Shown: positions 1 through 44,887 of the stretch, piece after piece
Layout of the letters: every line of letters starts with the position of its first letter
How positions within the stretch are numbered: position 1 is the stretch's first letter
Origin: an uncultured Ruminiclostridium sp.
GTDB taxonomy: Bacteria; Bacillota; Clostridia; Oscillospirales; Ruminococcaceae
Assembly: GCA_947623915.1 (NCBI GenBank)
Contig: CANQIB010000019.1
Location: forward strand, 1-44,887
Direction: 5' to 3'
DNA length: 44,887 nt
Made by a program: the position numbers and the translations under genes
The notes under the pieces: generated by a model
Databases searched by the model: none
What the model saw: the letters and a program-made list of their open reading frames with translations, nothing else
Told to the model about the DNA's origin: nothing

Positions 1-38
1 TTTCATCACCGCCCTTTTTATTATACCATATTTATTTG

Positions 39-110
39 AAAAAGCCAAGCATTCGCTTGGCTTTTTCGACAGTCTGACAGCCGCGCTTAATGTAAGCGCG
101 GCTGTTTTAT
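39..110 (+). terminator. Two tandem hairpins, probable terminators of an upstream gene
   Basis: The first hairpin (about 41-67) has arms AAAGCCAAGC and GCTTGGCTTT around ATTC and is followed by T residues. The second (77-105) is a perfect 13-bp stem, ACAGCCGCGCTTA with TAAGCGCGGCTGT and a 3-nt loop, followed by a T-rich tract. They separate whatever lies left of the window from the lichenase gene. Nothing coding is seen in 1-228. Confidence 0.75.
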
Positions 111-7292: not shown

Positions 7293-7488
7293 CAGTCTGT
7301 AGAAAAAGGTCAATATAAAGCGGAAGGAAAGAGGAGTTTGAGGGGAAAACCATCAGGGTTTTCACCCTCAAGTTTGATAAGAGCCGCGCAAAGCGCGGCA
7401 AAAATCGAGCGATACCGCTTATGCGGTATTGCCGATTTTTTCAGCTTGTCGGAAAATCCGACCATAGGGAGGGTTTTTCGACAAGCTG
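7293..7488 (-). repeat. Terminator-associated palindromic element, copy A
   Basis: A 196-bp non-coding element in the opposite orientation to copies B-D. It starts CAGTCTGTAGAAAAA and ends TTTTTCGACAAGCTG, so the ends form an imperfect inverted repeat. Inside are four palindromic modules shared with the other copies: the AGCTTGTCGAAAAA end hairpin, an ATACCGC/GCGGTAT hairpin within AATCG/CGATTTTT arms, GCCGCGC/GCGCGGC, and GAGGGTGAAAACC/GGTTTTCCCCTC. The right end lies 3 bp from the stop codon of the next gene. The flanks GCATAATA and TATTATGC are inverted copies of each other. The 7200-7491 gap holds only this element and the hairpin. Confidence 0.85.
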
Positions 7489-10622: not shown

Positions 10623-10649
10623 GACCTCGCTTGTTTAGCGAGGTCACTT
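10623..10649. terminator. Bidirectional terminator hairpin, left copy at element B
   Basis: GACCTCGCT with AGCGAGGTC around a short T-rich loop, followed by CACTTTA. The same 28-29 bp, with one mismatch, recur at 10850-10878 beyond the element. Read leftward, the hairpin is followed by G then six T residues. Confidence 0.8.
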
Positions 10650-10844
10650 TAACTTGTCGAAAACCCTTCCTATGGTCGGATTTTTCGACAAGCTAACAAA
10701 AAATTGTCAATACCACATAAGCGGTATTGACAATTTTTGCCGCGCTTTGCGCGGCTCTTATCGAATTTGAGGGTGAAAACCCTGATGGTTTTCCCCTCAA
10801 ACTCCTCTTTCCTTCCGCTTTGTATTGACCTTGCAATACAGATT
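10650..10844 (+). repeat. Terminator-associated palindromic element, copy B
   Basis: A 195-bp non-coding element. It keeps the end hairpin CTTGTCGAAAACC/GGATTTTTCGACAAG, an AATTGTCAATACC-type hairpin in the second position, GCCGCGC/GCGCGGC, and the TTTGAGGGTGAAAACC/GGTTTTCCCCTCAAA stem. It ends CCTTCCGCTTTGTATTGACC...ACAGATT. Both outer ends have drifted from CAG/CTG. The host terminator hairpin is present on both sides. It fills the gap 10617-10870. Confidence 0.85.
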
Positions 10845-10849
10845 TAAAT

Positions 10850-10878
10850 GACCTCGCTTTTTTAGCGAGGTCACTTTA
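10850..10878. terminator. Bidirectional terminator hairpin, right copy at element B
   Basis: GACCTCGCT/AGCGAGGTC followed by CACTTTA, matching the left copy in direct orientation. It overlaps the stop codon of the minus-strand membrane-protein gene, so the left copy includes a duplicate of that gene's last bases. Confidence 0.8.
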
Positions 10879-11413
10879 TTACCTTTCTGAGCTTCTTTTT
10901 GAGCCATTTATCGTAAAAGAACGACAGTTGGTCAAGACAAAGGTCATAGCATAAAAAGGTGAAATTTCCTATTCCCCAGAAGATGAGCAGCGCCCATTCC
11001 CCGAATCCGGCAAAATCCTCCATAAGCTCCGCCATGCCCAGCACGTTGAGCAGTACGAAGTACACCGCCACCACGGGTATGTTGAATACCGCCAGCCGCA
11101 GCAAAAAAGAGAGAGGCGCGGGCTTTATCGCCGCCAGCTTATCCCTTACCGCCGGATAATAACCGAAAAACACGGCGAACAGCAGCTTGGACTCTATATC
11201 GGGCGTAAGCAGCAGCGCAAGCAGCGCCACCGCGGAATAGCTGAGCAGCGCCCATTTCAGATTTATCTCCTGATATATCACCCATATGACTATCCCCGCC
11301 ACCGCGGGAAGAATATACGCGCCTATAGGTATGACTCCGGTGAAAAACATCATTATCACGCATACGGCGCTCAATATTCCGCACAACGCGATATGAAAGC
11401 TCCTGCCCGACAT
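10871..11413 (-). CDS. Integral membrane protein of unknown function
   Basis: A 180-residue protein with about five hydrophobic segments and a basic C-terminus (KKKLRKVIK). The pattern TGVIPIGAYILPAVAG, then a second gene-wide run of helices, resembles small membrane proteins of Clostridia sometimes annotated as ECF-transporter-like, but I cannot assign a substrate. It starts 21 bp after tyrA and is probably translated from the same mRNA. Its stop codon lies in the duplicated terminator hairpin of element B. Confidence 0.75.
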   Translation of the reverse strand: MSGRSFHIALCGILSAVCVIMMFFTGVIPIGAYILPAVAGIVIWVIYQEINLKWALLSYSAVALLALLLTPDIESKLLFAVFFGYYPAVRDKLAAIKPAPLSFLLRLAVFNIPVVAVYFVLLNVLGMAELMEDFAGFGEWALLIFWGIGNFTFLCYDLCLDQLSFFYDKWLKKKLRKVIK

Positions 11414-24542: not shown

Positions 24543-24550
24543 TAAATAAA

Positions 24551-24578
24551 AACGGCGGAAGTGTAATTTCCGCCGTTT
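24551..24578. terminator. Bidirectional terminator hairpin, left copy at element C
   Basis: AACGGCGGAA/TTCCGCCGTT with a short loop. Leftward it is followed by TTTTTATTTATT, the T run for the minus direction. Rightward the element starts after TTT, so the plus-direction T run is cut off. Confidence 0.85.
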
Positions 24579-24806
24579 CAGCTTGTCGAAAAACCCTCCC
24601 TACGGTCGGATTTCCCGACAAGCTGAAAAAAATCGGCTAGACTGCGTAAGCAGTCTAGCTCGATTTTTGCCGCGCTTTGCGCGGCTCTTATCAAACTTGA
24701 GGGTGAAAACCCTGATGGTTTTCCCCGTGAACTTTCCGCCGAATGGCGGACAGTTTTAAACTCAACTCTTTCCTTCCGCTTTATATTGACCTTTTTCTAC
24801 AAACTG
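24579..24806 (+). repeat. Terminator-associated palindromic element, copy C
   Basis: A 228-bp non-coding element and the best-preserved copy. It starts CAGCTTGTCGAAAAA and ends TTTTTCTACAAACTG, an imperfect terminal inverted repeat of about 15 bp. Internal modules are the 47-bp end hairpin, GCTAGACTGC/GCAGTCTAGC inside AATCG/CGATTTTT arms, GCCGCGC/GCGCGGC, the GAGGGTGAAAACC hairpin, and an extra TCCGCC/GGCGGA hairpin not present in A and B. The host terminator hairpin stands on both sides. The gap 24543-24860 holds nothing else. Confidence 0.88.
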
Positions 24807-24836
24807 AAACAGCGGAAATTACTTCCGCCGTTTTTT
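24807..24836. terminator. Bidirectional terminator hairpin, right copy at element C
   Basis: GCGGAA/TTCCGC stem followed by GTTTTTT, the plus-direction T run. Its loop ATTAC matches the left copy's loop better in inverted than in direct orientation. Confidence 0.8.
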
Positions 24837-42099: not shown

Positions 42100-42121
42100 C
42101 GACCCGCGATCATGCGGGTCA
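42100..42121. terminator. Bidirectional terminator hairpin, left copy at element D
   Basis: GACCCGC/GCGGGTC stem. Leftward it is followed by TTTCTATTT. Rightward it meets the element directly, without a T run. Confidence 0.85.
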
Positions 42122-42557
42122 CAGCTTGTCGAAAAACCCTCCCTACGGTCGGATTTTTCGACAAGCTGAAAAAATCGGCTAGACTGCTTAAGCAGTCTAG
42201 CTCGATTAACCCATTTTTAATGCTTTAAAAATTGGTTGCTGCCGCCTGCTTTGCGCGGCTCTTATCAAACTTGAGGGTGAAAACCCTGATGGTTTTCCCC
42301 GTGAACTTTCCGCCGAACGGCGGACAGTTTTCTCATTCAAACTTTCCGCCGAAGGCGGACAGTTTTAAACTCAACTCTTTCCTTCCGCTTTCAATAAGGG
42401 GCTTGCCCCGTCATTCAACGTGGCAAGGTGCGGCAGCCGCCGCACTTGGTAATCAGCAGGAGGATTGTGTCCACCTGCTGATTACGAAATTTCCCCCGCC
42501 GCTATACGCGGCGGGGGAAATCTTGCCTAAGTTATATTGACCTTTTTCTACAGACTG
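42122..42557 (+). repeat. Terminator-associated palindromic element, copy D (enlarged)
   Basis: At 436 bp this is the longest copy. It starts CAGCTTGTCGAAAAA and ends TTTTTCTACAGACTG. It has all modules of copy C, plus three additions: a palindromic stretch starting AACCCATTTTTAA (about 42208-42242); a second TCCGCC/GGCGGA hairpin; and about 140 bp (42390-42531) inserted between CCGCTT and TATATTGACC. That last block holds four more hairpins: GGGGC/GCCCC, GTGCGGC/GCCGCAC, GTAATCAGCAGG/CCTGCTGATTAC and a 14-bp ATTTCCCCCGCCGC stem. The gap 42097-42577 holds no gene. Confidence 0.88.
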
Positions 42558-42590
42558 CGACCCGCGAATCATACGGGTCATCCTTTTTTA
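42558..42590. terminator. Bidirectional terminator hairpin, right copy at element D
   Basis: CGACCCGCGA, ATCATA, CGGGTCA, then TCCTTTTTT. It matches the left copy in direct orientation (one inserted base, one change) and retains the plus-direction T run. Its end overlaps the stop codon of the PIN-like gene. Confidence 0.85.
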
Positions 42591-43141
42591 TTCTTTATAA
42601 GCGGCTTGATAAGTCTGTATATCTCTCCGGCACGCGTTGTGCCGTATTTTTTTGCGATACGATTGTTTATTCCCGTCTTGGTGGAAAGCTCGCGTATGCA
42701 CTTTATCACAAAATCCCGCTCCTCGGTATCGGTTATCACCTTTCCCACCTCGGAGGAGATCCTGTCACAAGCCGCGCCGTCTATCGCCGCGCCTATGCCT
42801 GCCGCAACGTCTACGTCCGCCTGTTTTTCCCTCCAGAACCGCGCGACGGTCTCAAATCCCCTGTCGGCGGAAATTATAAAATATACTGCGTCCGGCTCTC
42901 CGTTTATCATATATCCCAAGTATGACACAAGCTGAAAATCCAAAGCGTTTTTTGTGCCGGTGACCGCTTTCACGGTGTAAACGTTCGCCTGCGTCCTCAC
43001 AAGATCGTGATACATGGAAAAGGTCATGGAATTTGCGTGGTCGCTGTAAAAAATATACACACGGTCGTCTTTTCCCAAACGCTCCACGCCTACCAGCCCG
43101 TCCGACTTTACGTTCTCGAAATCTACCAGAAAAACCGCCAT
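42578..43141 (-). CDS. PIN/NYN-like nuclease-fold protein
   Basis: A 187-residue cytoplasmic protein. FLVDFENVK at the start and YFIISADRGFE near residue 90 carry the conserved acidic residues of the PIN/NYN fold, and NALDFQLVSYLGY supplies a third. The C-terminal 60 residues are basic and helical, perhaps nucleic-acid binding. RNase activity is inference. It is the last gene of an operon with an ABC polysaccharide exporter, starting 2 bp after the ATPase gene. Confidence 0.8.
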   Translation of the reverse strand: MAVFLVDFENVKSDGLVGVERLGKDDRVYIFYSDHANSMTFSMYHDLVRTQANVYTVKAVTGTKNALDFQLVSYLGYMINGEPDAVYFIISADRGFETVARFWREKQADVDVAAGIGAAIDGAACDRISSEVGKVITDTEERDFVIKCIRELSTKTGINNRIAKKYGTTRAGEIYRLIKPLIKNKKG

Positions 43142-43915: not shown

Positions 43916-44887
43916 TCAGAAGTAGTATACAAATTTCTGCTCTGTCTTTTTGTGTATGAAATATCCCAGCGCGAACACTATCGCCGCCGCTCCGAAGCAG
44001 AAAAGATGCGAGGAAAGGTCGGGTACGATGCCGTCTATTATCACCTGTCTTACATAAGTGATATAGCGGTATATCGGGTTTATCGCAAAAATTATCTGCA
44101 AGTTTTCGGGGAAGCTGTCGGCGGTATAGAATATCGCCGATACGAACATCAAAAGCTGCGTAAATATACCGTACAGATACTGGATATCTCGGAAAAAGAC
44201 AAACAAAGTAGATAAAATATATCCCACTCCGATATTGAACACCGTCATACAGACTATCGGATATATTATCAACAGCATATGCGGACCGAACGGCAGTCCG
44301 TCCACCGCAACAAATACAAAGTACACCACCAGCGTCAGCAAAAAGTTAAAGATGCAGGCGACGTTGGATGAAAGCAGGAAAATGGTCTTAGGCACTCTTA
44401 TCTTGGAGATCACTCCGGAATTCGCAAACATAGAAACCATACCGGCGTTGGTAGATGTGACAAAGAAAGAATATATCAGCGTGCCGGTCATTATATATGT
44501 TGAGAAATGCGGTATATTCCTGCGGAACAGGAAAGTGAACACGAACAGATAGATAAGGAAGTTCATGAACGGCGACAGCACGCTCCAAAAAATGCCCAGC
44601 AACGTACGCTTGTATTTTTTCTTAAAATCGCGCTTGGTAAGCTCCTCAAACAGAAAACGGTACTGCTTTACCTTATCCTTAAAAGTCATTCCGTCCCTTA
44701 TGACTATCTTTGACTGTTTAGGTAAAGCCGCCGCGGCAGCGCCGGCTCTTGCCCCATCGGGGCGAGGTCTGCGCGGTCTTTCTCCGTTCGGAGCTGCACC
44801 CTCCGGACGAGGTCTGCGAGGTCTTTCGCCGCTAGGAGCTGTACCCTCCGGACGGGGTCTGCGAGGTCTTTCGCCGCTAGGAGCTGT
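43916..44887 (-). CDS. ABC polysaccharide exporter permease (TagG/Wzm-like), N-terminus off the window
   Basis: Six-helix ABC2-type permease. RDFKKKYKRTLLGIFWSVLSP is its amphipathic entry helix, and the rest is hydrophobic. An ATG at 44689 could begin a 257-residue protein, but the frame stays open to the window edge and reads KQSKIVIRDG just before it, as I recall from Clostridial homologues, so I extend the gene. The extension carries Arg/Pro/Gly-rich repeats of 15 residues (units like RPRRPRPEGTAPSGE) and an alanine run. It forms a unit with the TagH-like ATPase and PIN-like genes. Confidence 0.8.
   Translation of the reverse strand, partial: TAPSGERPRRPRPEGTAPSGERPRRPRPEGAAPNGERPRRPRPDGARAGAAAAALPKQSKIVIRDGMTFKDKVKQYRFLFEELTKRDFKKKYKRTLLGIFWSVLSPFMNFLIYLFVFTFLFRRNIPHFSTYIMTGTLIYSFFVTSTNAGMVSMFANSGVISKIRVPKTIFLLSSNVACIFNFLLTLVVYFVFVAVDGLPFGPHMLLIIYPIVCMTVFNIGVGYILSTLFVFFRDIQYLYGIFTQLLMFVSAIFYTADSFPENLQIIFAINPIYRYITYVRQVIIDGIVPDLSSHLFCFGAAAIVFALGYFIHKKTEQKFVYYF
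44755..44887 (-). repeat. 45-bp coding tandem repeats, about three units
   Basis: Units of 45 bp (15 codons) containing GAGGTCTGCGAGGTCTTTC on the plus strand recur with period 45 and continue off the window. The two right-hand units are nearly identical and the left one is more diverged, so the array is probably growing by slippage. It encodes the Arg/Pro-rich N-terminal tail of the permease. Confidence 0.85.

Follow-up and report, generated by a model that had tools for sequence, protein, structure and literature searches.

Non-coding elements with IS1182-like ends lie between duplicated terminator hairpins in an uncultured Ruminiclostridium

The window, a stretch of 44,887 nucleotides from an uncultured Ruminiclostridium sp., holds close to its right end a non-coding element that has nearly the same terminator hairpin on both of its sides. 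How does a single element come to lie between two copies of a hairpin, and what could have moved it there? The first-pass annotation of this DNA proposed that the whole bidirectional terminator had been duplicated as the target site. We followed this proposal through the window, the rest of the genome and its relatives.

Hairpin-flanked copies in the window and their family

The window contains four copies of the element (family 1), named A to D, which are located together with their flanking hairpins as follows.

7293..7488, minus strand: copy A, 196-bp family-1 element, terminator hairpin at one side only
10623..10649, unstranded: left hairpin repeat of copy B
10650..10849, plus strand: copy B, diverged family-1 element
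10850..10876, unstranded: right hairpin repeat of copy B, including the stop codon of gene 10871-11413
24550..24578, unstranded: left hairpin repeat of copy C
24579..24806, plus strand: copy C, 228-bp family-1 element
24807..24833, unstranded: right hairpin repeat of copy C, its loop in the opposite orientation to that of the left repeat
42100..42121, unstranded: left repeat of the duplicated terminator hairpin of copy D, CGACCCGCGATCATGCGGGTCA
42122..42557, plus strand: copy D, family-1 element (MITE) of 436 bp, a long form that contains extra hairpins
42558..42580, unstranded: right repeat of the duplicated terminator hairpin of copy D, CGACCCGCGAATCATACGGGTCA

The two repeats of copy D, described earlier as GACCCGC-type hairpins in direct orientation, align in that orientation with 21 of 23 columns identical, the differences being one indel and one substitution. 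The sequence 'tagaaa' is located 5' of the left repeat and 'tccttttttatt' 3' of the right one, in line with the claim that the T runs of one bidirectional terminator are split between the two hairpins. The stop codon (42578-42580) of the right-hand gene (42578-43141) falls inside the right repeat. Copy B lies between copies of another hairpin, for which an identity of 28 of 29 bp had been given; here one of 27 positions differs (26 of 27 identical), a gap within the uncertainty of the element ends. The stop codon of its right-hand gene (10871-10873) is also part of the repeat, so that the duplicate covers the end of the neighbouring gene at B, as had been noted, and at D likewise. Altogether, a hairpin is found on both sides in three of the four window copies (B, C and D, not A). 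The long form of D additionally contains several perfect hairpins (42331-42535) resembling captured terminators. At the end of the window (44750-44884), a 45-nt unit is repeated three times in tandem, and similar units open another contig, C20.

Family 1 is represented by at least 42 listed copies of 195-436 bp, all non-coding, in the 2.25-Mb genome of the window (G000), the list comprising 43 rows minus a false second start of the copy at locus L008. Typical copies start with CAGCTTGTCGAAAAACC and end with TTTTTCTACAGACTG. Being short, multi-copy, devoid of a transposase gene and provided with ends in common with an insertion sequence (IS), the element is a MITE. Among 60 genomes of the genus, counting G000, 11 matched the family, and a pattern scan of species genomes returned 39 stretches, mostly from metagenome-assembled genomes titled as uncultured Ruminiclostridium, Eubacterium or Oscillospiraceae. 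Carriage by phages was rejected, as viral contigs gave no exact match to a similar, slightly stricter core pattern and no relative of the IS piece described below by tblastn. A known RNA family was rejected as well: the window has no Rfam match at the gathering score, and all matches of copy C are below the gathering scores.

The interior of the element is conserved. Sixteen diverse copies have a common hairpin with the near-invariant loop ACCCTGATGGT, followed by the near-invariant TTTCCTTCCG. Their predicted consensus structure contains 29 pairs, with 448 of 464 cells paired and nine pairs changed on both sides; it was derived from the same 16 sequences and is hence biased in its favour. The retention of this predicted hairpin and of TTTCCTTCCG across diverged copies suggests a role beyond that of a passenger.

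A second non-coding family (251-523 bp; L159, L160, L161, L163 and L167-L170) has ends like the left end of the IS, and seven of its eight collected copies are located between duplicated hairpins. Some of these copies have an extra inner module. At a further locus, L071, the right-hand hairpin repeat is broken by another insertion-like stretch with inverted repeats.

Hairpin duplication across copies and at empty sites

The duplication was assessed in 83 copies for which both ends were available, 48 in G000 and 35 in relatives, the latter limited to loci returned by searches. A nested duplicate match at L097, copies truncated by contig ends, and ends with more than three (left) or four (right) mismatches, such as those of B, L020 and L042, are outside this sample, which includes a few weak end matches (for example L110 and L120). 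A direct repeat abuts the element in 59 of the 83 copies, compared with 21 of 6,806 mismatched left/right pairs used as the null. Folding places hairpins within 8 nt of both ends in 66 of the 83. When both approaches are combined, 60 copies have the same hairpin on both sides, six have unlike hairpins, 13 have a hairpin on one side only and four have none; one of the 60 was missed by the fold criterion, leaving a main class of 59.

The repeats extend 19-39 nt from the element, with a mean of 27 nt, and are perfectly identical over 19-36 nt in 19 copies. Their length tracks that of the hairpin (Spearman 0.88, n=58), which upholds the earlier description of an unusually long duplication and refines it, the length varying with that of the hairpin. 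Moreover, all 59 main-class copies have four or more T among the 8 nt that follow the right repeat, or four or more A among the 8 nt preceding the left repeat, and 39 have both runs. Most targets therefore resemble intrinsic terminators, in many cases bidirectional ones. The hairpins differ from locus to locus and are present at element-free sites, in agreement with the first-pass view that they are the host's own. The hairpin duplication is thus real and general, and the 23 of 83 copies without alike hairpins on both sides speak against full generality.

Filled and empty sites were compared between sister species, not between strains of the window's species. As anticipated for an insertion with duplication, orthologous sites at three loci hold one hairpin when empty and two when filled. 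The first locus is the terminator of the orthologue of copy D's right-hand gene. There, the relative G035 (L132) is empty and has a single hairpin, and another relative, G030 (L131), has the element, in the orientation opposite to D, between two copies of the hairpin, with flank identities of 95% and 87% and a left-hand gene other than that of the window. At the second locus, the element is found between two 22-nt hairpin copies in G030 (L075), and one hairpin is present at the empty site in G035 (L261). The third locus is filled in G035 (L074) and empty in G018 (L274) and G030 (L275), with one hairpin each; here the two flanks align with an overlap of 27 bases in G018 and 12 bases in G030, as must be the case after a duplication. 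A fourth comparison, between more diverged sites, gave a single hairpin at the empty one (L095) and, at the filled one (L006), a hairpin beside just one end of the element. A search starting from L064 yielded no orthologous flanks. Furthermore, the same orthologous terminator carries elements of different subtype with different hairpins in G000 (L005) and G035 (L106), which may reflect repeated insertion or one old shared insertion.

These sites bear on two other explanations of the paired hairpins. Pre-existing terminators of the neighbouring genes, with the element landed between them, would fit the six of 83 copies flanked by unlike hairpins, but loop and stem sequence are common to both sides in 60 of the 83 and the single hairpin at the empty sites rejects this explanation at three loci, making it extremely unlikely overall. 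Still closer to zero is our estimate for flanking hairpins carried by the element itself. Although its interior is rich in hairpins, the flanking ones are different at each listed locus, occur at sites free of the element and can include the stop codon of the neighbouring gene.

A partner insertion sequence and its relatives

Contigs of G000 break within a longer repeat that has element-like ends. The left end of this IS, found at six contig ends, has the sequence CAGACTGTCGAAAAAGCC, and behind it come a promoter-like stretch and what may be a start codon; the right end is found at four. One left end opens the window.

1..76, minus strand: left end of an IS1182-type insertion sequence, at the contig start
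77..105, unstranded: terminator hairpin beside this IS end; the same 29-nt hairpin borders an IS right end where contig C3 ends

All four right ends share an identical hairpin with a left end (C25/C16, C17/C7, C19/C3 and C13/C8), and two of the six left ends are without a partner right end. At C13/C8, the IS is inserted in the hairpin of a family-1 element. Since the ends were paired by the hairpins themselves, an IS with unlike hairpins could not pair, and the pairs are supporting rather than independent evidence; they strongly suggest that the IS itself shows the same hairpin duplication. Contig ends inside family-1 elements match likewise (C1/C9 and C17/C23). Because each locus has its own hairpin on both sides, the duplications work as bar codes linking contigs broken at repeats, and identical flanking hairpins join the contig ends C1/C9, C17/C23, C3/C19, C7/C17, C16/C25 and C8/C13, which makes them usable for scaffolding.

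The ends of the MITE match those of the IS in both G000 and G035. Terminal inverted repeats of the CAG..TGTnGA type are present in these two genomes and in annotated IS1182 copies (for example L243, L246, L247 and L253). In G035, a 124-residue open frame, a C-terminal piece, is positioned before the right end of the IS. It matches DDE_Tnp_1_6 (PF13751) with 86.2 bits (cut-off 25.1) and positions 394-486 of the 488 of the IS1182 model NF033551 with an E value of 2.2e-29 and 102.7 bits, the cut-off for the whole protein being 270. Among plasmid sequences, the highest-scoring relative is a protein from Thermocaproicibacter annotated as IS1182 transposase, which is 63% identical. The mover is most likely a DDE transposase of the IS1182 family. 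The G000 assembly lacks the transposase gene, and in G035 the gene is represented by the C-terminal piece only. The piece was matched in eight of 71 genomes, several of the matches being weak or interrupted and G000 not being among them; G018 and G030 contain MITEs and gave no match. As the IS ends are present in the G000 assembly and the gene is missing from it, absence from such draft assemblies is weak evidence.

Plasmid records were searched with the C-terminal piece (353 records) and with the whole protein (1,764 records), and 16 IS1182-type loci, a small and hand-picked sample, were examined. Ten of them have CAG-type or related ends, and in six of these ten the left and right hairpins are the same (Acetoanaerobium, Sutcliffiella, Peribacillus pB, Cetobacterium, E. 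casseliflavus and Rhizobium Q54). Three of the ten have unlike flanks (Peribacillus pA, Thermocaproicibacter and E. faecium), and the Subdoligranulum locus (L244/L250) has a hairpin at the right only, its left end not being found. The six distant IS1182-like loci (L255-L260, 24-28% identical) show no hairpin duplication; their terminal repeats are of another type where found, and the ends are unset for L256 and L260.

Proposed mechanism and comparison with known systems

The full hairpin copy left on each side suggests that the enzyme recognises DNA shape and not sequence. We consider it quite probable that the MITE is moved in trans by an IS1182-type DDE transposase, from a subgroup with CAG..TGTnGA ends, that would recognise a palindrome, the hairpin then being duplicated by gap repair. 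The palindromic DNA structures recognised would for the most part be intrinsic terminators, and their form would probably be an extruded cruciform or hairpin. Both transposon ends would be joined at the symmetrical feet of the hairpin, one per strand, and repair of the gap would copy the whole palindrome, yielding a target duplication equal to the hairpin. As the duplicated unit would be the whole palindrome, its length would vary with the hairpin. We infer the mobilisation in trans and the cruciform at the target, as well as the strand and foot that are attacked. The first-pass annotation had left the target as a cruciform or an RNA hairpin, and the link to a DDE transposase favours the DNA structure over the RNA one. 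Following insertion, the element would part a gene's nearest hairpin copy from its matching T run, the T run remaining with the far copy, and the element's own hairpins may stop transcription too. Insertion at a terminator, with a hairpin left on each side, may in this manner let the element multiply with little harm.

Two further explanations concern the enzyme. A different, unseen enzyme might duplicate the hairpins, with the resemblance between MITE and IS1182 ends being secondary. The MITEs of G018 and G030, two genomes unmatched by the C-terminal piece, speak for it, but MITE and IS ends match, the IS itself adjoins duplicated hairpins, and the IS gene is also missing from the G000 assembly despite the IS ends there, rendering such an enzyme improbable. 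About half as probable, in our estimate, is an RNA-based insertion, intron-like or by reverse transcription, into the terminator hairpin of a transcript. The prevalence of intrinsic terminators among the targets and the conserved, structured interior of the element would suit it, but the terminal inverted repeats are in common with a DDE-type IS, the target duplication spans the whole hairpin and the window lacks an Rfam match at the gathering level.

The orientation of the loops touches on the details of the proposed transposition. When the loops of 66 pairs were compared, some of them pairs of unlike hairpins for which the score means little, 53 scored better in direct and nine in inverted orientation, and four were undecided. 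All nine inverted-scoring pairs come from G000, and the right loop is clearly inverted in five of the 48 copies of this genome (L019, L008, L169, L014 and window copy C), four of them with otherwise unchanged sequence. It is conceivable, though rather unlikely, that a cruciform-specific enzyme cuts and joins at both hairpin feet and that a hairpin-capped intermediate is reopened on either strand; if true, this intermediate would account for the five inverted right-hand loops. Alternatively, the inversions may represent ordinary loop flipping by template switching. By eye, the loop in L261, an empty site, seems flipped as well when compared with the filled L075, which favours template switching.

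Several known systems resemble parts of this behaviour. Group IIC introns prefer intrinsic terminators, insert after the hairpin, and produce neither target duplications nor terminal inverted repeats. The terminator preference is alike, but the target duplications and terminal repeats found here speak against a group IIC intron. During CRISPR spacer integration, Cas1-Cas2 duplicates a whole, often palindromic repeat; it inserts short spacers at a single dedicated repeat, whose length is fixed. The duplication of a whole repeat is similar, whereas the fixed repeat length is unlike the situation here, and no Cas genes are implicated. In ISfinder, the direct repeats of IS1182 elements are reportedly 0-60 bp, and long IS1182 repeats may therefore already be on record.

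Hairpin targeting is established within the IS1182 family. IS1272 and TnSha1 from Staphylococcus target stem-loops and terminators without common sequence and delete all or part of the hairpin, with no target duplication (Wan et al. 2017, PMC5678879; Furi et al. 2016, PMC4923244). The stem-loop targeting is the same as here, but the whole hairpin is kept and duplicated instead of removed. An IS1272-type replacement of the stem-loop does not describe the present elements: 60 of 83 copies lie between two copies of the hairpin, and a single hairpin is present at the empty sites. MITEPye1 of Paracoccus yeei, an IS1182-related MITE with 4-bp direct repeats and one to three copies per chromosome, is small and non-coding with IS1182-like ends, as here, and hairpin duplication is not mentioned in the sections consulted of its description (PMC11578231). 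Its 4-bp repeats, like the hairpin deletion by IS1272, weigh against the mechanism proposed here. In the literature searched, as far as the consulted portions extend, no report of whole-hairpin duplication with a length that tracks the hairpin was found; duplication of the whole stem-loop is drawn as a possibility by Wan et al. (pathway b). Hairpin targeting in this family was already known, and whole-hairpin duplication, previously only proposed, is here well supported. Our empty sites and large sample show a target duplication whose length tracks DNA secondary structure and not a fixed spacing. The hairpin-deleting IS1272 gains a duplicating counterpart in the same family, and the model of structure recognition becomes directly testable.
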